Origin: a virus
IMG/VR virus record: IMGVR_UViG_3300047157_000064
Coordinates: 1-22,368 of that record
Length of the DNA: 22,368 nucleotides
Reading direction: 5' to 3' (one strand)
A model generated the notes under the pieces. The model saw only the letters and a program-made list of their open reading frames with translations. It was not told the origin of the DNA and did no database searches. Shown piece by piece: positions 7,738 through 22,276 of this stretch. The position numbers were made by a program, and so were the translations under genes. The number at the start of each line of letters is the position of its first letter. Positions within the stretch are counted from its first letter, which is position 1.

Positions 7738-8091
7738 ATGGATTTTATTGATCACAGAAGTACGGCGCAGTTTACATTCCTAACCTCAGCTACAGATGAG
7801 AAAATCCGCATCAATGCGGATGGAGATTTGCTGGTTGGAATCTCTACGCCATTTGATACTTCCGGGATTACGCTCGACGCTACTGGTGCGCTAGGTGTTG
7901 ATGGCCACATTACAGTGGCTACTGGCGCAACTTATGATATCGGCTACGGCCACCAACAAGTTCCGCGATCTTTATCTTTCTGGCGACATCAATGTTGCTG
8001 GCGTATCTACCTCTGGCGACTTAACGGTTGGCGGCTCTCTAAGCGTTACAACGGACGCTACTGTTACCGGCAGTCTAACTGTCAGCACTGA
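7738..8091 (+). CDS. N-terminal fragment of the long tail fibre gene (frame broken near 7945)
   Basis: Starts at the ATG at 7738, ten bases after the tailspike stop, with a weak AAGG ribosome-binding site. The first 69 residues look like genuine fibre sequence: KIRINADGDLLVG matches the RMRIDASGNLLVG repeats further along the long fibre, and the segment ends GATYDIG. After codon 69 the frame turns into Arg/Trp/Cys-rich sequence that resembles nothing else in the protein and stops at 8091. Skipping one base (T at 7945) would join YDIG to TATNKFRDLYLSG, restoring a motif found twice more downstream (DIGNSGVRFKNLYLSG and DLGRSSGRFKNLYLSG). I therefore regard only 7738-7944 as real coding sequence and as the true beginning of the fibre protein. 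Confidence 0.6.
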   Translation: MDFIDHRSTAQFTFLTSATDEKIRINADGDLLVGISTPFDTSGITLDATGALGVDGHITVATGATYDIGYGHQQVPRSLSFWRHQCCWRIYLWRLNGWRLSKRYNGRYCYRQSNCQH

Positions 8092-11000
8092 CGCGACTGT
8101 AGCTGGCGATCTCACGGTTAGCACCAACGCAACTATTACTAACGACTTAACAGTAAGCAATGACGCCACGATTTCTGGTGATTTAACCGTTAGCACTAAC
8201 GCAGTTATTGCAGGCGATCTGACTGTAAACGGCACGACTACCACGATCAACACTGAGACGCTTGATGTTAAAGACAAGAACATTACGCTGAACTATGGCG
8301 GCGATACAACGTCAGCCAACGGTGCCGGGATTACAATTGAGGATGCTGTAAGCGCGGGTAACGACGCAACCATTTTATGGGACGGCAGCAACGACACGTT
8401 TGATTTCAGCCACGCCATAGACGTTACAGGCACGATCACGGCTGACAACAACCTAACCATCCAAAACTCTAATGCGTATGGTTCTATCGAGGTTGGCGGC
8501 GTATCTGGCGGCTTCATCGACATCAAGCGTCCATTCTCTGACGACTACGATCTACGTCTAATAGCAGAGGGTGACGGCGGTGTCATTAACGTCGCTTCTG
8601 GCGAGCTAACGATACAGCGAGCAGGGTCGGCCAAGCTTGCTACCTCAAGCGCAGGCGTCGACGTAACAGGTGATATTGCTGTTAGCGGCACTGTAGATGG
8701 TCGAGATGTAGCAACTGACGGCCTCAAGCTAGATGGCATTGAAGCCTCAGCAGACGTAACAGACACAACTAATGTGACTGCTGCTGGTGCCTTGATGGAC
8801 TCAGAGGTAACTAACTTAGATCAAGTTAAGGCGTTTGATTCTTCTGATTACGCTACAGCCGCACAAGGCTCTACTGCTGACTCTGCATTGCAGAACGTAG
8901 TAGAAGACACTACGCCACAACTGGGTGGTGATCTTGACCTTAACGGTAATGACATCACTGGCACAGGTAACATCGACGTAACTGGCACAGCCACGATGGA
9001 TGGGCTTGATGTACAAGGCAACGTCATTATTAATAATAGTTACGCATATCAAATTGGTGGAGACAGTGCCAGTACTAGCGTAATTGGTAAAATGCACAAT
9101 TCTTCAGGTGTGTTTACTTTAGCGTCTCTAGACTCTAGGCATATGAAGTTAACTACAAGTAATGCTGACCGTCTAAAAGTAGATGCCAACGGCGACATCA
9201 GCTTCTACGATTCGGCGGGGTCAAGCCAATCTCTGTTCTGGGACGCCAGCACAGAATTTTTAGGGTTAGGCAGCACGACGCCACAGGCCAAGCTAGATAT
9301 CGTCGACACAGCCTCTGACGTACAGATGCGCGTCTACAAGTTTGACGGCACCAAGAACACACGGATTACGCTAACGGCTGACGACAGCGGCGCTAAGATC
9401 CACTACCGAGATGCAGACAACGCAGGCGCACTAAGGTTTAACAACAACCTTGGCGAGGTCATGCGGATTACTGCGAATACTACGCGGTTAGGAATTGGGA
9501 CTAGCAACCCGACTACTGAGCTTGAGGTTGACGGTGTCATTACTACAGCAGGTTTAACGACTACAGCTGACATTAACTTTGGTGACAACGACAAAGCTGT
9601 CTTCGGTGCTGGCTCTGACCTACAGATTTATCATGATGGTACACACAGCTACATTAAAGATGCAGGCACTGGAAACTTAAACATTTTAGCCTCTACGTCT
9701 ATCAACCTGTTAAACGGTGATAGTTCAGATTACATGGCGCGGTTTAACGACAACGGCAGTAATCAATTCTTTTACGATGGCTCACAAAAACTAGTCACAA
9801 CCTCCACAGGCATCGACGTAACGGGGAGTGTTGTTAGCGACGGCTTGACTCTTGATAATAACGGTTCGGTTATTTTTAACGCCCCGCAAGCAACAGATAC
9901 AGTTCTTATCGGCACAAATGATAACGACCTTGTTCTACGCACTGATGATGGCGATATCATTCTCAAAACAAATGAAAATAAACAGCAATTAAAAGTAAGC
10001 AACAACGGCGACATTAGCTTCTACGAAGACACTGGCACGACTGCGAAGTTGTTCTGGGATGCTTCTGCGGAAGCGTTGGGTATTGGTACTAGCAGTCCAG
10101 AAAAACTGTTGCATTTAAAAACTTCAGCAATTAATACGGCTTTTGCTCGAATAGAATCTACAGCGACTAACAGCTACCCAACACTTTCTCTTAAAAATGA
10201 CGCAAGAGAATACCAGCTTACTGCACACGGCCCGCTTGGTGATGTGTTTACTATTTACGATGGAACAGCAGGTAGCCACAGACTTATTATAGATTCTAGC
10301 GGGAATGTTGGTATTGGCACTAGTTCGCCTGACGCAAAATTTCATTCATACCAATCAGCGGCAAACTATGCGGCACACTTTGAATCTGCTAATGCAAACT
10401 CTTACGGTGTATGGGTTGAAGAAGGTGCAAGTGCTAATAATGGCTACCCCTTACTAAGCGTTACAGATAATGGAGGTTCTACTCAATATTTTAGAGTAGA
10501 TAGTGGAACAGGGAATGTTGGGATTGGTACTAGCAGTCCTTCTTCTGTTTTACATTTAAGCACATCTAATGACCCAAAAATAACCCTGACAGATACAGGA
10601 TTTGGAGCGTCTGCTGATATTACAGGTTCAAATGGGAATCTTAGACTTAACAGCCAAACAGCTACTATTTTTGATATGGCTGATAGCGAAGTTGCACGTA
10701 TCGACTCTAGCGGGAATGTTGGTATCGGCACTAGCAGTCCAAACAGTTACTCTAATTTAAAGACACTAACAATTAATGGAACTAACGGCTCTGTTGTTGA
10801 TTTTGAAACTAATGGAACGCTTTCAGGTGAAATATTTGCAGAATCGAATAGCTTAAAAATAGATGCAGTAGGTTCTAGTGGAGTTTTAAAACTACTAACC
10901 AACTCAACAGAACGCATGCGCATCGATGCTTCAGGCAACCTGCTGGTTGGTAAGACTGCAACAGCCTTTGGAACAGCAGGGGTAGCAGTTTTTGGTGGCG

Positions 11001-13261
11001 GTGAGATAGATATAACTAATACTAACGAAGCACCTCTGTTTTTAAATCGTCTATCTTCAGATGGCGCTATTGCTCAGTTCTACAAAGACGGCACCGCAGT
11101 CGGTAGTATTGGTACACAAAGCGGCAATCCTTATATTGGAGGAACAAACAGAGGTATCCGTTTCGACAGCACACAGATTATTCCTGCTGATATGACTGCC
11201 TCTGGAAGCAATTCAGACAACTCAATAGACATTGGTAACTCTGGTGTTCGCTTCAAAAATCTTTACTTGTCAGGCACTGCTAATGTTGGTGGTGTGGCTG
11301 TAATAGGAACAGATGCAACCGATGTAGCCTCTATTGGAACATCGGGGCAACGAGTTTATATCAAGCCTAACGGCACTGAAATTATTTACAATGCTAGTGG
11401 TAATTCAGCAGGTCAGCACGTTTGGCAGACAGGCAATGCAGAACGCGTGCGTATCGATGCCAGCGGCAACTTGCTGGTTGGTAAGACTGACACTAGTATT
11501 GCAACGCAAGGTGTATTCTTCGGCCCTAATTATTCACACATTACATCAACCAATGATACTCCCTTAGCTTTGTCTCGTAAAAGCAGCGACGGCACTATCT
11601 TGGATATACGCAAAGACGGCACCACAGTCGGTAGTATTTTTAACTCTGGTACTACAATGGGCATTGGCTCATTAGATACTGGCGTACTACTTGCTAACAA
11701 TATCGACGCAATACTTCCGTGGAACGCTTCAACGAATGCAGAGCGAGATGCCGCAATTGATCTAGGTCGATCATCTGGACGCTTCAAAAACCTTTACCTG
11801 TCAGGCAATGTAACTTCAAGCGGAACTTTCAGAGGTGGCGCTGGTAGTGCATCAACTCCAACATTCCTTACTGACGGCTCTACAGGAATGTTTAGAGCGT
11901 CATCCAATGACATTGGCTTTAGTTGTGCTGGAAGTGAGGTTGCTAGGTTTGATAGCTCTGGCAACTTGATGGTTGGTACTAGTGATACTTTTGTCGCTGA
12001 TAATACATCAGGCAATGGCTTAAGTTATCGCGCAAGTGCAGGTGATTTGGGTGTTGCCGCTACTAACACGCCAGCATTTTATGCAAATCGTATGAGTTCT
12101 GACGGAACCATTGTGGACTTCCGCAAAGACGGCACCTCAGTCGGTAGTATTGGTAGTAATGCTGCTGGAGGAACGCCAGTTCTTGACATAAGCGCCAATA
12201 CCTCTTCAGGTATTATGAGGATGCTTACGTCCGGCTCAGAACGCATGCGTATCGACTCAAGTGGTAATGTTGGGATCAACACTAGCAGTCCTACCTCAGT
12301 ACAAGGTTTTGCCAAAGTATTAAAGTTAGAAGATTCAAGCAACGCCTCCATTGTTGTTAGTGGTGGTTTGCATGAAGCTGAATATGCTGTTTCTTCAAGT
12401 GGCGGTTGGTTTGGTACATCGACAAACATTCCGCAACGGTTTATAACCAACAACACAGAACGAATGCGTATCGACTCGACGGGTCGTGTAGGTCTGGGTA
12501 CAAATTCACCGGACGTTAAGCTCGATATAGTTGACACTGCCGCAGACGTTCAATTACGTGTCTATAAGTTTGACGGTACTAACAACACTCGTCTTACTCT
12601 GACTGCCGATGATAGTGGTGCCAAGATCCACTACAGAGACGCTACAAACGGCGGTGCCTTGCGCTTCAATAACAACGCAGGGGAGATGGCTAGGTTTGAT
12701 GCTAGCAGCAACTTGCTGGTGGGTACTACTGCTCCACACCCTGCGGGAAATAATACAGCAGGTATGTCGGTAGGCACTGGTATCGGTTTGTCTGTTCAAG
12801 GCGCAAACACTGCCCTGACAATTGGCGTTCCTTCAGCACAAACCTATGGCATGGCTTTCCGTTTCCAAGGCGCATTAGCAGGTCGTATTGGTATTGAGGC
12901 TAATAACATTACTGTAGCTGATGTTTCAGATTATAGGCTAAAAGAAAACGTAGCTCCGTTATCTGATGCGCTTACAAAAATTAAGGCATTAAAACCATCG
13001 TCATTTAATTTCATCAATTACCCTGATAAGACACATGAAGGCTTTATTGCACACGAACTACAAGAGGTAATTCCTTATGCTGTTTCAGGAGAAAAAGATG
13101 CACTCATAACAGAAGCTACTAAAGATAGAGGCACTGTTGGTGAGATAGACCCGCAAGCTGTAGATTTAAGGAAATTAGTACCTACGCTTGTCGCGGCAAT
13201 ACAAGAGCTATCTGCACAAGTAGAATCATTAACCGCCCGTATTGAGGCACTAGAATCTTAA
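7895..13261 (+). CDS. Very long tail fibre with C-terminal S74 intramolecular chaperone
   Basis: The frame can be opened at a GTG at 7895, but the first 17-18 residues do not look like fibre and no ribosome-binding site is present; joined to the upstream fragment the protein would have about 1840 residues. After a 12-residue repeat region come many copies of a fibre motif of the IDSSGNVGIGTSSP type, and two near-duplicate 60-residue blocks (residues 466-525 and 1542-1601). The last 111 residues form a peptidase S74 chaperone domain, starting SDYRLKENV, with the expected Ser1678-Lys1683 dyad. In this family the domain trimerises the fibre and then cleaves itself off just before the Ser. It ends in a short coiled coil (about 1765-1785). 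This is probably a host-recognition fibre working beside the upstream tailspike; receptor unknown. Confidence 0.85.
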   Translation: MLMATLQWLLAQLMISATATNKFRDLYLSGDINVAGVSTSGDLTVGGSLSVTTDATVTGSLTVSTDATVAGDLTVSTNATITNDLTVSNDATISGDLTVSTNAVIAGDLTVNGTTTTINTETLDVKDKNITLNYGGDTTSANGAGITIEDAVSAGNDATILWDGSNDTFDFSHAIDVTGTITADNNLTIQNSNAYGSIEVGGVSGGFIDIKRPFSDDYDLRLIAEGDGGVINVASGELTIQRAGSAKLATSSAGVDVTGDIAVSGTVDGRDVATDGLKLDGIEASADVTDTTNVTAAGALMDSEVTNLDQVKAFDSSDYATAAQGSTADSALQNVVEDTTPQLGGDLDLNGNDITGTGNIDVTGTATMDGLDVQGNVIINNSYAYQIGGDSASTSVIGKMHNSSGVFTLASLDSRHMKLTTSNADRLKVDANGDISFYDSAGSSQSLFWDASTEFLGLGSTTPQAKLDIVDTASDVQMRVYKFDGTKNTRITLTADDSGAKIHYRDADNAGALRFNNNLGEVMRITANTTRLGIGTSNPTTELEVDGVITTAGLTTTADINFGDNDKAVFGAGSDLQIYHDGTHSYIKDAGTGNLNILASTSINLLNGDSSDYMARFNDNGSNQFFYDGSQKLVTTSTGIDVTGSVVSDGLTLDNNGSVIFNAPQATDTVLIGTNDNDLVLRTDDGDIILKTNENKQQLKVSNNGDISFYEDTGTTAKLFWDASAEALGIGTSSPEKLLHLKTSAINTAFARIESTATNSYPTLSLKNDAREYQLTAHGPLGDVFTIYDGTAGSHRLIIDSSGNVGIGTSSPDAKFHSYQSAANYAAHFESANANSYGVWVEEGASANNGYPLLSVTDNGGSTQYFRVDSGTGNVGIGTSSPSSVLHLSTSNDPKITLTDTGFGASADITGSNGNLRLNSQTATIFDMADSEVARIDSSGNVGIGTSSPNSYSNLKTLTINGTNGSVVDFETNGTLSGEIFAESNSLKIDAVGSSGVLKLLTNSTERMRIDASGNLLVGKTATAFGTAGVAVFGGGEIDITNTNEAPLFLNRLSSDGAIAQFYKDGTAVGSIGTQSGNPYIGGTNRGIRFDSTQIIPADMTASGSNSDNSIDIGNSGVRFKNLYLSGTANVGGVAVIGTDATDVASIGTSGQRVYIKPNGTEIIYNASGNSAGQHVWQTGNAERVRIDASGNLLVGKTDTSIATQGVFFGPNYSHITSTNDTPLALSRKSSDGTILDIRKDGTTVGSIFNSGTTMGIGSLDTGVLLANNIDAILPWNASTNAERDAAIDLGRSSGRFKNLYLSGNVTSSGTFRGGAGSASTPTFLTDGSTGMFRASSNDIGFSCAGSEVARFDSSGNLMVGTSDTFVADNTSGNGLSYRASAGDLGVAATNTPAFYANRMSSDGTIVDFRKDGTSVGSIGSNAAGGTPVLDISANTSSGIMRMLTSGSERMRIDSSGNVGINTSSPTSVQGFAKVLKLEDSSNASIVVSGGLHEAEYAVSSSGGWFGTSTNIPQRFITNNTERMRIDSTGRVGLGTNSPDVKLDIVDTAADVQLRVYKFDGTNNTRLTLTADDSGAKIHYRDATNGGALRFNNNAGEMARFDASSNLLVGTTAPHPAGNNTAGMSVGTGIGLSVQGANTALTIGVPSAQTYGMAFRFQGALAGRIGIEANNITVADVSDYRLKENVAPLSDALTKIKALKPSSFNFINYPDKTHEGFIAHELQEVIPYAVSGEKDALITEATKDRGTVGEIDPQAVDLRKLVPTLVAAIQELSAQVESLTARIEALES
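7945..7945 (+). other. Apparent single-base insertion (+1 frameshift) in the long fibre gene
   Basis: The frame from 7738 reads ...GAT ATC GGC (to 7944). Omitting T7945 lets ACG GCC ACC AAC continue into the main fibre frame, giving DIGTATNKFRDLYLSG. Internal repeats of the same protein support exactly this join. The local sequence is not a homopolymer and not an obvious slippery site. Confidence 0.6.
8033..8230 (+). repeat. Tandem 36-base (12-residue) repeats in the fibre gene
   Basis: Five full units start at 8033, 8069, 8105, 8141 and 8177, and a partial one at 8213. Each encodes a variant of GDLTVSTNATIT, where alternating small/polar and aliphatic residues suggest a triple beta-helix or beta-prism shaft. 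The DNA of the units has diverged at synonymous positions, so this is not a recent slippage product. Confidence 0.8.
9290..9469 (+). repeat. Fibre duplicate block A (pairs with 12518-12697)
   Basis: Encodes a 60-residue block beginning KLDIVDTASD and containing RVYKFDG, LTADDSGAKIHYRD and GALRFNNN. It matches the block at 12518-12697 at 50 of 60 residues while the DNA differs at most synonymous positions. The two copies bracket most of the fibre shaft. Confidence 0.8.
12518..12697 (+). repeat. Fibre duplicate block B (pairs with 9290-9469)
   Basis: Second copy of the 60-residue block, beginning KLDIVDTAAD. Within the first 40 codons, 36 residues are shared with block A but 22 of those 36 use a different codon, indicating an old duplication or separate acquisition with the protein sequence maintained. 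Confidence 0.8.
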
Positions 13262-15396: not shown

Positions 15397-15416
15397 TAAC
15401 CAAGGGAGAAGGACAA

Positions 15417-15776
15417 ATGTCAGAATTTGATTTCTATGAAATCGCTACAAACTTCCCTAACTGGGAAGATAATGTTGATTGCATTGAGGACATGGATATC
15501 CGCCGTGACTTAATGCGTCAAGTCGAACGCGACTCATCCGAGCTTGCGCCTACCGCCGCACACCAGACTGGCTCCGAGCTGGAATTCGTTGACATGATTT
15601 TTAACGACCAGATGGAGCCGGCTGATGTCGTCAACAAACTCCGCACCATGCTTTGGAACTATGCCAAGCCAATGACCATTGAGGCCATTGCGGATGAGCA
15701 ATCAAAGTATGCCTATGAAATGGATATCAAGCCTGAGACGGCACTTGATTTGGGGGTGCGTGACAGTGACTTTTGA
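15417..15776 (+). CDS. Hypothetical acidic early protein
   Basis: I choose the ATG at 15417, which has the ribosome-binding site GGGAGAAGGA at proper spacing; an upstream ATG at 15390 lies within the control region. The 119-residue product is acidic and mostly helical, with FDFYEIATNFPNWEDNVD near the start and a later DVVNKLRTMLWNYAKP segment. I do not recognise it. It is the first gene after the palindromic control region, so it is probably expressed first in this transcript. No membrane segment or catalytic motif is visible. Confidence 0.7.
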   Translation: MSEFDFYEIATNFPNWEDNVDCIEDMDIRRDLMRQVERDSSELAPTAAHQTGSELEFVDMIFNDQMEPADVVNKLRTMLWNYAKPMTIEAIADEQSKYAYEMDIKPETALDLGVRDSDF

Positions 15777-17047: not shown

Positions 17048-17252
17048 TATTGGGCTGTCGCTGAGAACAGCGCAGAAAGAGTTTCGTGTCAGCAATAAAC
17101 AACTGGCACGGGACTTTGATGTAACTGAAATGACAATCCACAGATGGCGCAAGAGCAAGGACGCAACCCTTAGCCGCACAGTGGATTTGGCAGAGCGATT
17201 TGATATGGACTTTGAATCGTTTCTTGATCTGCCATACAGGGAGGAAGCATGA
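17031..17252 (+). CDS. Helix-turn-helix protein, XRE/Cro-like
   Basis: The ATG at 17031 gives 73 residues; ATG 17022 is also possible, and the frame is open further upstream inside the SSB-like gene. The predicted HTH lies at about residues 15-40: QKEFRVSNKQLARDFDVTEM leading into TIHRWRKSKD. A second helix pair (TVDLAERFDMDFESFLDL) follows, as in Cro/CI-type proteins. It should bind a short DNA operator, probably as a dimer, and is a natural candidate for reading the palindromes at 15362 and 21744-21803, though nothing in the sequence links them directly. The gene overlaps both neighbours (17 bases and ATGA). Confidence 0.75.
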   Translation: MTFHFDIGLSLRTAQKEFRVSNKQLARDFDVTEMTIHRWRKSKDATLSRTVDLAERFDMDFESFLDLPYREEA

Positions 17253-17452
17253 GTCAGAAAGATCGGGTACTTCAGTACCTCAAGCAAGGCAAGGTGTTAA
17301 CCAGACTAAACGCATGGGATGAGCTGGGTGTGATCGAAGCCCCGGCTCGTATCTCAGAGCTGCGGCATGAAGGTCACGACATTCAGACAGCCATGAAGCT
17401 AGTGTTCAACCGTTATGGTGATCAGGTGCGGATTGCTGAGTGGTTTATCTAA
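17249..17452 (+). CDS. Small winged-helix/HTH protein
   Basis: 67 residues, overlapping the upstream gene by four bases. The pattern SQKDRVLQYLKQGKVLTRLNA / WDELGVIEAPARISELRHEGHDI is a compact winged helix that I recognise from many phage genomes (an HTH family often annotated as helix-turn-helix domain protein). The last strand pair, VFNRYGDQVRIAEWFI, would form the wing. It probably binds DNA, as a regulator or a replication accessory. The stop lies at the start of an A-run and hairpin at 17451-17476 that forms an intrinsic terminator only on the opposite strand. Confidence 0.75.
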   Translation: MSQKDRVLQYLKQGKVLTRLNAWDELGVIEAPARISELRHEGHDIQTAMKLVFNRYGDQVRIAEWFI

Positions 17453-17476
17453 AAAAAAGGCCCCATCGCTGGGGCC
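17451..17476 (-). terminator. Intrinsic terminator for leftward transcription
   Basis: GGCCCC-ATCGCT-GGGGCC forms a six-base-pair GC stem. Read on the minus strand it is followed by eight T residues, the classic intrinsic terminator; on the plus strand the stem is followed by ATGTCACTTG, which is not a U-tract. No leftward protein gene precedes it nearby. Confidence 0.65.
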
Positions 17477-17510
17477 ATGTCACTTGTCCAAGGGAGGGAC
17501 TACGTGATAT
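17477..17510. other. Long imperfect hairpin next to the terminator
   Basis: ATGTCAC pairs with GTGATAT (one G-U) and GTCC pairs with GGAC, separated by a 2x3 internal loop and closing a seven-base loop AAGGGAG. On the minus strand the loop reads CTCCCTT, complementary to the Shine-Dalgarno leader AAGGGAG used elsewhere in this window. Confidence 0.5.
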
Positions 17511-17623
17511 CTTCGAAGGGTCAAGTAAGAAGATGTATGGATTATACACTACAAAACCATTCCGTATCCTCCCTCATCTACTTTTTTGTCAGAGATTACT
17601 GGGCGTTAGGCCGACGAACTTAA
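17504..17623 (+). CDS. Possible 39-residue small ORF (GTG start)
   Basis: The GTG at 17504 lies seven bases after CCAAGGGAG, the same leader seen upstream of three other genes in the window. The product would be 39 residues with a hydrophobic/aromatic C-terminal half (SSLIYFFVRDYWALGRR). Against it: the ORF runs through a region dense in inverted repeats, the start lies inside the hairpin at 17477-17510, and the sequence resembles nothing I know. It may be a small toxic peptide or a chance ORF. Confidence 0.25.
   Translation: MISSKGQVRRCMDYTLQNHSVSSLIYFFVRDYWALGRRT
17541..17546 (-). promoter_or_regulatory. Candidate leftward -10 box (TATAAT)
   Basis: A perfect TATAAT on the minus strand with no recognisable -35 element at 16-18 bases. 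It would start a leftward transcript near 17534, ending about 80 bases later at the terminator at 17451. The call is weak because a lone -10 is common by chance. Confidence 0.25.
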
Positions 17624-17632
17624 GAACGTCGG
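17611..17632. other. Hairpin CCGACG-10-CGTCGG
   Basis: Perfect six-base arms around a ten-base loop centred on CTTAAG. It lies in the middle of the 330-base region without a convincing gene. There is no U-tract after it on either strand, so it is not an intrinsic terminator; it may be part of a structured RNA. Confidence 0.4.
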
Positions 17633-17693
17633 AGACAGAGTTGACCCTCTCTATGATGCGCCTCCCTGTGCCGAGAGCTGGTAAAGGGAATAG

Positions 17694-17735
17694 ATGTCAA
17701 GATTCGATACAGTAATCAAAGCTCGTCATTACTAA
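17694..17735 (+). CDS. Possible 13-residue leader peptide
   Basis: ATG with a good upstream AAAGGGAA opens a 13-codon frame (MSRFDTVIKARHY). It is followed by a stable hairpin at 17749-17762 and then the ribosome-binding site of the next gene. That order resembles a leader peptide controlling a downstream gene, but such a short ORF can arise by chance. Confidence 0.25.
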   Translation: MSRFDTVIKARHY

Positions 17736-17748
17736 TTAACTGATTTGT

Positions 17749-17762
17749 CGGAGCTTGCTCCG
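17749..17762 (+). promoter_or_regulatory. Leader hairpin with CUUG tetraloop upstream of the 17783 gene
   Basis: CGGAG-CTTG-CTCCG: a five-base-pair stem closed by the especially stable CUUG tetraloop, nine bases before the AGGGAAG ribosome-binding site. It is not followed by a U-tract. It may set the mRNA 5' end, stabilise the transcript or tune translation. Confidence 0.4.
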
Positions 17763-17782
17763 GCATCAAAAGGGAAGTGTGG

Positions 17783-18007
17783 ATGAAATTAACTAGTGAA
17801 ATAAGATTAAGGCTAGACGAATGGGCTGGCGAAGGCGACATTCTTATATGTGATAGCTGGGAAGAAAACGGCGCGTTATGGAGGGCTGACATTCTCAAAG
17901 ATTGGATTCTTCATTTAGGCGAGCTTTATAGCGATGCTTGTGAAGATATGGGTAGAGATGGCCCTACGGCAATCGAATTTGTAGAGGTTCCTTGTGATCA
18001 TTCTTAA
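17783..18007 (+). CDS. Small acidic hypothetical protein
   Basis: The ATG at 17783 has AGGGAAG at good spacing; the GTG six bases earlier abuts that site and is less likely. The 74-residue product is acidic and helical, with DEWAGEGDILICDSWEENGA in the middle and a DILKDWILHLGELYSDACED helix. I do not recognise it. It is the first gene after the structured non-coding region and overlaps the next gene by 14 bases, so it probably belongs to the replication/recombination cluster that follows. Confidence 0.6.
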   Translation: MKLTSEIRLRLDEWAGEGDILICDSWEENGALWRADILKDWILHLGELYSDACEDMGRDGPTAIEFVEVPCDHS

Positions 18008-20358: not shown

Positions 20359-20704
20359 TAAGGCGGTAAGGCTACGCGACGGAAAGTGTATGCACTGCCA
20401 CAAGACTGATCGACTTGAGTGCTCACATATCTACGGCCGGGCAAACAAGCGGGTGAGATGGGCCATGTCAAATTGTATCGCCCTCTGCCATGCTTGCCAC
20501 AGATACATGACCTCCAATCCCGTGGCGCACTTCGACTTCTTGAATGACCTGCTCGGCGAAGAGCACATGGATAAGTTGCGGATGGATCGCAATGAGATAT
20601 ACAAGACCAACAAGCTGTTGAGAAAGGATATCGGCGATCACTACCGCGATGAGGTCAGGCGTAAGGAACTTGATCCTGATTACGAGATTCAGAGCTGGAA
20701 CTAA
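20321..20704 (+). CDS. HNH endonuclease, NinG-like recombination nuclease candidate
   Basis: 127 residues, with GAGGGC upstream of the ATG. It opens with DIWFSKAVRLRDGKCMHCHK. Zinc ligands are Cys23/Cys26 and Cys56/Cys59; the HNH core runs from CSHIYGR (His36) through SNCIAL (Asn51) to HACH (His60). This is a compact beta-beta-alpha-metal nuclease. The arrangement and position after a NinB-like gene resemble lambda NinG (Rap), which resolves recombination intermediates, although a packaging-type or homing HNH cannot be excluded. The 3' end overlaps, tail to tail, the end of a leftward gene by 50 bases. Confidence 0.8.
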   Translation: MAVKRDQADIWFSKAVRLRDGKCMHCHKTDRLECSHIYGRANKRVRWAMSNCIALCHACHRYMTSNPVAHFDFLNDLLGEEHMDKLRMDRNEIYKTNKLLRKDIGDHYRDEVRRKELDPDYEIQSWN

Positions 20705-20858
20705 CATAGTCCAGATAATACTGCCTAAGAATGAAACGATCCCGGAGCTTAGTTAGGGCGCTCTTTTCTAACTGAGCCACCCTACTCCGGGTAATACCTA
20801 ACTCATCGGCAATCTCTTGATGAGTCATTAGGTAGTCGTCGTTGATTGCTCTTGTCAT
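20655..20858 (-). CDS. Sigma-70 region-4-like HTH protein
   Basis: 67 residues with AGGGG before the ATG. The segment MTHQEIADELGITRSRVAQ / LEKSALTKLRD is a textbook sigma-70 region 4.2 helix-turn-helix, the part that reads the -35 element. No region 2 is present, so it cannot be a complete sigma factor. It more likely acts as a small DNA-binding regulator, an anti-sigma-like decoy, or a partner of the host RNA polymerase. It is the last gene of the leftward block. An interrupted inverted repeat (20741-20791) lies inside its HTH codons, and its 3' end overlaps the HNH gene. Confidence 0.75.
   Translation of the reverse strand: MTRAINDDYLMTHQEIADELGITRSRVAQLEKSALTKLRDRFILRQYYLDYVSSSSESRNQDQVPYA
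20741..20791. repeat. Interrupted 16-bp inverted repeat inside the sigma-like gene
   Basis: CCCGGAG plus CTTAGTTAG (20741-20756) pair with CTAACTGAG (20768-20776) and CTCCGGG (20785-20791). All 16 pairs form, one of them G-U, around an 11-base loop with an eight-base bulge on one side. No U-tract follows on either strand. It lies just past the end of the rightward cluster and inside coding sequence of the leftward one. Confidence 0.6.
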
Positions 20859-20883: not shown

Positions 20884-21120
20884 TTACGCGACCTGTCTTG
20901 TGTATTGGTGCTCGCCGTTCTTTTTCTCGACGATCATAAAGTGGCAACGATCAGAGTCTAAATACGCTTGCGCCATATCGACAGCGTCTGATTTTAAATG
21001 GTAGTACTCTGACTCACCAACGCAGTCATCGTACTTGTCTTTATGGGTGACTACCCAGCCTTCCCAGCCCTCTTGATCGCAGTACCAAACTTCAGTTACG
21101 TGCCAGCTATCTAAATACAT
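20884..21120 (-). CDS. Small hypothetical protein, leftward block
   Basis: I choose the internal ATG at 21120 because it has a strong GGAGG ribosome-binding site eight bases upstream and shares its first base with the upstream gene's stop (TAATG). The 78-residue product is acidic and aromatic: DSWHVTEVWYCDQEGWEGWVV, then DMAQAYLDSDRCHFMIVEK. Such Trp/Tyr-rich small proteins are common in phage early regions and are usually unassigned. No membrane segment or catalytic motif is visible. Confidence 0.65.
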   Translation of the reverse strand: MYLDSWHVTEVWYCDQEGWEGWVVTHKDKYDDCVGESEYYHLKSDAVDMAQAYLDSDRCHFMIVEKKNGEHQYTRQVA

Positions 21121-21389
21121 TAATAAACCTCCACTAAAATCCAAAAGCTGCGAGCAAACCACTTGCTTGGGAAAAACCCGGTTTCTCGCAAGTTCACTTG
21201 CGCGCTCCAGTATTCAACCATCACTGGCTGATCTTGCTCGTAAGTGATTGCGTCGGTTGCGCTTGCTATCTGAAACGCAAGCTGTGCTTTTAGGAAAGAA
21301 CAAACCAACTTCATTTGATCTTGAGGGATGGGCAAGCACTGACCTTCTGCCTCTCCATCTACGCACTTAAGAATATAACCTGTGTCCAT
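21120..21389 (-). CDS. Small hypothetical protein, leftward block
   Basis: 89 residues. The ATG at 21389 follows the leader AACCAAGGGAG, which also precedes 15417 and, in ten-base form, 21670. The product contains CLPIPQDQMKLVCSFLKAQL and a C-terminal aromatic segment (GFFPSKWFARSFWILVEVY). I do not recognise it. It is coupled to the next leftward gene by a one-base overlap, and starts 20 bases after the stop of the gene upstream. Confidence 0.65.
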   Translation of the reverse strand: MDTGYILKCVDGEAEGQCLPIPQDQMKLVCSFLKAQLAFQIASATDAITYEQDQPVMVEYWSAQVNLRETGFFPSKWFARSFWILVEVY

Positions 21390-21409: not shown

Positions 21410-21670
21410 TTAGCTGTACTGAAGTTGCTCGTCATATTGCTCGGTTACGAGGTCGAGGATTGTGTCTGCCTCCCACGTCGCGCCGTCTGGCGTCTCTTCT
21501 GGTAGCTCGCGAAGGATTTCGCATACAGCTTGAGACTTTGTGCAGGCCATGTAGACAACCAGCTCGACTTTGTTCTTGAGTAGGTTGTAAAAGCTCTCAT
21601 CATTGTTGAGCCAAAGAGCAGTGTTCCAGTGGTTGTAAGATTCGTAGCCGTTGAAAGTATTGTTAGTCAT
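21410..21670 (-). CDS. Small conserved phage protein (NHWNTALWLNND type)
   Basis: The ATG at 21670 gives 86 residues and has the leader AACCAAGGGA upstream; the longer frame from 21748 would run through operator-like palindromes. The N-terminus TNNTFNGYESYNHWNTALWL resembles a widespread phage group with the signature YxxWNxALW followed by an acidic C-terminal half (ELPEETPDGATWEADTILDL). The function is unknown. As the first gene of the leftward block it lies closest to the divergent control region and is probably the most strongly expressed of the four. Confidence 0.75.
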   Translation of the reverse strand: MTNNTFNGYESYNHWNTALWLNNDESFYNLLKNKVELVVYMACTKSQAVCEILRELPEETPDGATWEADTILDLVTEQYDEQLQYS

Positions 21671-21711
21671 GTCTCTAGTCCCTTGGTTAGTGGCTGTGTC
21701 CCCAGCCGATG

Positions 21712-22010: not shown

Positions 22011-22063
22011 GGTGACAACAGGCCGGAAAGGTCACGGGGCTTCTTGCCCCTCAAAAAAGGGAA
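22011..22063 (+). promoter_or_regulatory. Leader with competing hairpins before the 22070 gene
   Basis: Two mutually exclusive pairings exist: GTGAC (22012) with GTCAC (22031), or GGCC (22021) with GGTC (22030). A strong GGGGC-TTCTT-GCCCC hairpin (22036-22050) follows. Its 3' arm can instead pair CCCT (22048-22051) with AGGG (22058-22061), which is the ribosome-binding site. The arrangement could switch translation on and off. Confidence 0.35.
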
Positions 22064-22069
22064 TGGGTC

Positions 22070-22276
22070 ATGTACGAGCAAGAAATGTTTAACAGGAATC
22101 CGGGCTTTGTAATCGGCGCGGTTATCTTATTTATCACTGTGTTGGGCATCGTAGGTAATGCCGACATGGAAGAAGAAATCAGCCAGTACGAGTTCTATTG
22201 TGAGAACGTCGCCATGTGGATCGACTCCAATGGTGAGAACGGTCACCCAAACTTCCGAGGTGTAGATTGTGAATGA
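22070..22276 (+). CDS. Small membrane protein
   Basis: 68 residues with AAGGGAA seven bases before the ATG. One membrane helix is clear at about residues 13-29 (FVIGAVILFITVLGIVG), followed by an acidic stretch and EFYCENVAMWIDSNGENGHP / NFRGVDCE. The YCENVAMW... pattern with a late cysteine is common to small phage membrane proteins of unknown function. The short N-terminus before the helix and the acidic part after it leave the topology open. It overlaps the next partial gene by eight bases. Confidence 0.65.
   Translation: MYEQEMFNRNPGFVIGAVILFITVLGIVGNADMEEEISQYEFYCENVAMWIDSNGENGHPNFRGVDCE

Follow-up and report, generated by a model that had tools for sequence, protein, structure and literature searches.

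We describe a short noncoding gene on the minus strand of an uncultured phage genome (the window, 22,368 nucleotides), at 17535-17451(-), that very probably encodes a trans-acting small RNA which covers the Shine-Dalgarno sites of a set of the phage's cassette genes and so represses them as a regulon. An earlier note on this DNA had proposed an sRNA aimed at the phage's own messages, and this proposal is well supported by sequence, with seed-leader matches kept across lineages: comparison among relatives establishes that the RNA gene is conserved and its stems compensated, that unrelated genes have a leader box in common, and that the seed of the RNA covaries with these leaders. From these patterns we infer leftward transcription, with host RNA polymerase the probable enzyme and a GTGTATAAT box its start signal, of an RNA of about 85 nt that would end at a U8 terminator. 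The C-rich seed of this RNA (CUCCCUUGG here), predicted to be exposed in a hairpin loop or, among certain relatives, in the unpaired stretch leading into the terminator, could in cells form a direct duplex of 8–9 bp at the Shine-Dalgarno region in a number of phage mRNAs with leaders of the form hairpin-(A)CCAAGGGAG-N6-9-AUG. With the Shine-Dalgarno covered, ribosome binding would be blocked, and small, swappable accessory genes would be shut down together, perhaps in a timing role such as early-gene shut-off. Repression is the natural sign of such an effect, judging from position, because the predicted duplex covers the Shine-Dalgarno.

A candidate leftward RNA gene and its relatives

The strand from 17535 to 17451(-), about 82–85 nt, reads as an intrinsically terminated bacterial-type sRNA gene with a predicted promoter, compact stem-loops and a rho-independent terminator, an assignment that draws on the fold z-score, covariance model R1 and diverged members. 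The 85-nt strand folds at −27.2 kcal/mol (z = −3.4) into two hairpins, H1 and H2, followed by the terminator. H1 (17509-17534(-), AUCUUC/GAAGAU) has an arm that begins 6 nt after the TATAAT −10 box, and H2 (17486-17500(-), GUCC-CUCCCUU-GGAC) carries in its loop (CUCCCUU, 17496-17490) the seed CUCCCUUGG (17488-17496(-)). The earlier note had drawn one long hairpin with a CTCCCTT loop; the loop stands, as that of the second hairpin, whereas the single hairpin is really two. The terminator stem-loop (17459-17476(-), with U8 at 17458-17451) had been described as perfect and leftward only, and indeed GGCCCCAGCGATGGGGCC-TTTTTTTT, at 17476-17451, forms one on the minus strand alone, the plus side having no T run. 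Nor does a leftward gene feed it, again in agreement with the note, as no conserved leftward ORF was found at 17.45–17.78 kb. An ORF at 17440-17715(+) was rejected as a gene, since relatives show indels and its reading frame is broken.

The −10 element GTGTATAAT (17541-17549(-)) is predicted from the letters only, with TATAAT itself at 17546-17541. Both the box and the lack of a −35 element had been pointed out before, and both are confirmed: no sigma-70 −35 element lies near TATAAT in the window, and none is conserved in relatives. There the −10 box is GTGTATAAT or a near variant (TATAAT/TATACT) within unrelated upstream contexts. We considered whether TATAAT might instead lie inside a longer structured RNA, given that the upstream block folds on both strands, yet the spacing of the box is constant in unrelated contexts, and we therefore prefer the promoter reading. 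No T7-type phage RNA polymerase was found that might serve the promoter, a weak negative, as the search control gave no match either. In the window as a whole, 10 terminator-like sites were found against 8.6 expected, so that as a class they are not above chance, and the count from a promoter scan was likewise not above chance; conservation therefore had to decide.

Two further features lie next to the promoter. At or just 5' of the sRNA −10 box (17541-17580 in the window, and in contigs L022, L098 and L151), lineage-specific inverted repeats occupy a similar position (GAATGG..CCATTC, GTAGAGT..ACTCTAC, ATAACAATAAATGTTAT and ACAGC..GCTGT) and are possible operators. A second conserved noncoding block (17550-17782) separates the sRNA promoter from the gene 17783 Shine-Dalgarno. 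It exists as two unrelated types among relatives, shows compensatory changes on both strands with an alignment-fold signal of z = −5.0 (minus) and −5.4 (plus), and may be a structured 5' leader for the operon that runs rightward.

The same RNA gene, with strongly compensated stems, occupies the same place in roughly 70 IMG/VR contigs, its carriers forming a group of uncultured aquatic phages. A first set of relatives was gathered through a neighbouring protein, and among these the element is seen wherever the contig covers the site; a later search through an ERF-like neighbour protein added distant relatives, in which a diverged RNA stands at the corresponding position. Promoter, hairpins and terminator stand also in contigs with unrelated upstream sequence. 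Several model matches were weak (20–26 bits) and were accepted on position and the shared promoter.

The earlier note had suggested analysing covariation of the hairpins in relatives, and this analysis finds compensated stems. Across 38 distinct classic members, covariance model R1 gives 99.2% standard pairs and 54 both-side changes, with a covariation score of 0.204, where shuffling gives 0.065 and sliding the pairings no more than 0.047, values obtained from an alignment fitted to the model and with compensation mostly in the terminator. The stem of the latter is rebuilt by double changes in relatives, and its U-rich tail holds six to eight U in most members. H1 is invariant in the 38 classic members and compensated in diverged ones only (AUCCU/AGGAU in L151/L224, which are the same contig, and AUCUUG/CAAGAU in L189); the H2 stem is compensated in L189 and L151. 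We also ran a loop-blind scan, built from the promoter and first-hairpin pattern with zero loop letters, in which contigs with a terminator and the shared upstream signature were taken as true members and the other pattern matches had neither. UCCCUU was found in the loop of every true member, while the bases 5' of it differed (CU, GCU, ACU, GUU, UCU, AUU) and the terminators were rebuilt; in the 38 classic members, too, the UCCCUU is invariant and its 5' flank variable.

Beyond this group, at the search sensitivities applied to Rfam and to the phage and genome collections, the RNA was not found: the window had no match in Rfam 15, and a lax search returned only isrD, at 18.3 bits against a cut-off of 37 and over the terminator. 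The phage DNA collection held no DNA match to region 17240-17820. Copies in bacterial genomes were considered and rejected, as the 23 pattern matches in the genome collection were without promoter and terminator and were judged to be chance, and a supposed homologue in Vibrio phage CKB-S2 turned out to be only a terminator. The virion protein is about 27–31% identical to those of Vibrio and enterobacterial podoviruses, which speaks for kinship only.

A leader box shared by unrelated small genes

The complementary leaders to which the earlier note had drawn attention are present: CCAAGGGAG is found at 15400-15408(+), in what we call slot 1 and after the hairpin GTTCCATGTGGAAC, and at 21404-21396(-), each directly 5' of an ATG (15417+ and 21389-). 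A third leader, CCAAGGGAC (21678-21686(-), slot 2), offers an 8-bp match and precedes 21670, likely the true start of the next leftward gene. The candidate target genes behind these leaders encode, in the same order, proteins of 119 aa (15417-15776(+)) and 89 aa (21120-21389(-)), neither with a Pfam match, and of 86 aa (21410-21670(-)), assigned to DUF7249. RNA-RNA interaction prediction with the three leaders, another check suggested in the note, gave net cofold energies of −12 to −14 kcal/mol (−13.8, −12.3 and −12.2), whereas three ordinary leaders reached −1.4 to −5.8. Other G-rich leaders were intermediate in net pairing (−9.7 for 18787 and −8.3 for 17783), and leader 22070 reached −13.6 in another register. 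In the leaders at 22030-22070 and 17750-17783, too, the start codon is preceded by a hairpin and AAAAGGGA; that of the 17783 type is independent of the sRNA type.

Across the family, about 16 families of small, mutually unrelated genes have the box CCAAGGGAG 6–9 nt 5' of ATG, in most cases directly past a hairpin, which is GTTCCATGTGGAAC in slot 1, a stem ending CACAGCC in slot 2 and CGCGTAAGCGG in slot 3. Gene clustering returned 17 families with a CCAAGGGA leader, one of them the RNA's own antisense, leaving 16 real. In 587 kb of family contigs CCAAGGGA occurs 120 times, compared with about 18 expected by base count, and once the antisense of the RNA and roughly a dozen sites in coding sequence are discounted, every occurrence lies 6–9 nt before an ATG. 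Nearly every member of each family has such a leader (20/20, 6/6, 4/4, 4/4), and in slot 1 the box is kept in 10/10 as the protein falls to 53% identity. Leaders with CCAAGGGA number zero in four related phages without the RNA and 1–4 in each of ten with it. The slot 1 box was present in 29 contigs, 27 of which bear the RNA; of the remaining two, L151 has a diverged RNA and L152 apparently ends before the RNA site. The target genes are small, most have no recognised domain, and they are swapped from phage to phage in fixed slots, a make-up that would suit accessory, early-infection genes.

AAGGGA is the leader hexamer shared by the most gene families (37/240), and we asked whether all such leaders could be counted as targets. 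Those of the 17783 slot and of the ERF-like gene are independent of sRNA type and look like plain ribosome-binding sites; an AAGGGA leader by itself therefore does not make a gene a target.

The layout of the leaders also bears on the sign of regulation. The leader hairpins directly adjoin the box and could be remodelled by pairing, in which case the RNA might activate its targets or the leaders might be sponges that titrate it. The Shine-Dalgarno, however, is part of the box, and the box is not part of the leader hairpin; an RNA paired there should prevent initiation, and we consider activation or titration very unlikely.

Joint change of seed and leader box

In the window, the seed CUCCCUUGG is the exact complement of CCAAGGGAG. 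The earlier note had held that its model would fall if loop complementarity were lost in relatives; the opposite is seen in loop-blind and protein-anchored scans, where seeds are complementary to their own leaders and both sides have changed together. Diverged relatives have the seed/leader pairs CUCCCUUGU/ACAAGGGAG (L189, with three ACAAGGGAG leaders), CUCCCUUAG/CUAAGGGAG (L193-195), CUCCCGUAG/CUACGGGAG, and UUACCCUUC/GAAGGGUAA (L151/L224, with two GAAGGGUAA leaders). For L193, the sRNA was predicted from the leader and then found. In several relatives the seed has shifted from the loop to the single strand 5' of the terminator (CUCCCUUAG, CUCCCUUUG, CUCCCGUAG, CUCCCGUGG). Its covarying seed, complementary to distant ribosome-binding sites, thus marks the RNA as a putative trans-acting, Shine-Dalgarno-occluding sRNA.

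Single-base differences within one slot follow the same rule. Slot 2, after GGGGATGTCCCG, reads AAGGGAG in contigs with CCCUU sRNAs and ACGGGAG in those with CCCGU sRNAs. Counting leaders with either box, in slots 1 and 2 set by the upstream hairpin alone, AAGGGA accompanied CCCUU sRNAs in 35/35 cases and ACGGGA accompanied CCCGU sRNAs in 10/10 (Fisher p = 3e-10, relatedness of contigs ignored); since the contigs are related, these counts are not independent and are inflated, and some of the complementarity would arise in any case, G-rich leaders being ribosome-binding sites. A 9-mer seed-versus-leader matrix was near-diagonal, and own seeds paired better than seeds swapped among contigs, with 0/2000 swaps scoring as high. 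The CCCGU type is scattered on the ERF tree, still matching its leaders, and forces at least three changes; inheritance from a single ancestor is therefore insufficient, and recombination could have carried linked pieces. Exceptions were seen as well: ACGGGA was found in 0/4 slot 3 leaders of CCCGU contigs, L151/L224 keep one old-type CCAAGGGAG leader with which their own RNA pairs over only 5 bp, and no leader in L228/L229 matches the seed.

Could the main targets lie elsewhere? As S. aureus RNAIII and RsaE illustrate, a UCCC seed can pair with G-rich ribosome-binding sites in general (PMC9217828), and the RNA might mainly hit host mRNAs or mimic the 16S rRNA anti-Shine-Dalgarno, disturbing host translation, with the phage matches as a side effect. 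The covarying bases, however, do not belong to the GGAG core that 16S rRNA recognises. Ribosome binding by itself thus fails to account for them whereas sRNA pairing does, and the 8–9 nt complementarity is specific to the phage's own leaders and missing in control phages. We thus hold this account to be decidedly unlikely, although additional host targets could exist beside the phage ones. It is very unlikely, too, that the box is a recombination or cassette-slot sequence of which the RNA gained an antisense copy, the match reflecting shared ancestry or joint transfer and not pairing. The genomes are mosaic, and the leaders do stand at gene-swap boundaries with common upstream hairpins, but the box is kept behind different hairpins and in slots separated by kilobases, while the seed of the sRNA shifts between loop and linker, and pairing would predict just such joint changes at single seed bases. 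Most improbable of all is that the hairpins are a mere terminator region, with no regulatory RNA, for the leftward-pointing accessory operon at 20.7–21.7 kb: the leftward terminator is strong, but promoter box, spacing, hairpins and seed are kept where the terminator sequence is wholly different, and a terminator needs no seed covarying with leaders kilobases off.

If the RNA does repress by covering Shine-Dalgarno sites, this phage group would coordinate swappable accessory genes post-transcriptionally, and any new cassette could adopt the leader box. The box would offer a simple means to recognise such cassettes, and the lineages provide a ready-made natural compensatory-mutation pair; targets proposed purely from sequence seldom have covariation between two RNAs to back them. 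More tentatively, and with the balance somewhat against it, the system may form a lineage-specific lock-and-key translation code, in which one RNA gates interchangeable cassettes through a shared box and RNA and boxes switch jointly. A cassette or co-infecting phage with the wrong box would then escape control, and one with the right box would fall under it.

Comparison with known RNAs and other features of the window

Cuckoo/CcsR RNAs of Alphaproteobacteria are chromosomal and have hairpin loops with the anti-Shine-Dalgarno motif CCUCCUCCC; membership was rejected on the loop motif alone, which here is CUCCCUU. S. aureus RNAIII and RsaE bring a C-rich, unpaired UCCC seed to the Shine-Dalgarno regions of several mRNAs and block translation (PMC9217828; see also PMC2837412). 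The likeness, a C-rich seed set against the Shine-Dalgarno regions of several mRNAs, is one of mechanism only: those RNAs are bacterial and built differently, whereas the phage RNA would aim at the phage's own genes with a longer, lineage-specific seed that coevolves with the leaders, and no Rfam match pointed to homology. The c4 RNA of P1/P7 and the sar RNA of P22 are likewise phage-encoded and pair near the ribosome-binding site or start of a phage mRNA, ant, blocking its translation (PMC12197685). Theirs is a role in immunity or lysogeny control through ant, whereas here several unrelated genes have one leader box; a c4/sar-type antisense RNA was rejected, the window targets being one DUF7249 gene and two genes without Pfam match in place of ant. 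VpdS of phage VP882 and PreS of lambda are phage-encoded sRNAs as well; both are described as binding Hfq, with host dnaN as the target of PreS and both host and phage RNAs as those of VpdS (PMC12197685).

Our search of open-access papers returned no description of this RNA, which belongs to neither the S. aureus UCCC-seed nor the c4/sar families and, unlike c4 and sar, appears to control a regulon of several genes by way of one common box that coevolves with it. To our knowledge, phage sRNAs with a multi-gene regulon among the phage's own messages are rarely documented.

Elsewhere in the window, the leftward accessory cluster includes a 67-aa protein (20658-20858(-)) that matches Pfam sigma-70 region 4 (E = 2e-10) and is a putative stand-alone sigma region 4-like protein. 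Finally, a 1788-residue repetitive ORF at 7895-13261 resembles a tail fibre, an identity judged by eye.
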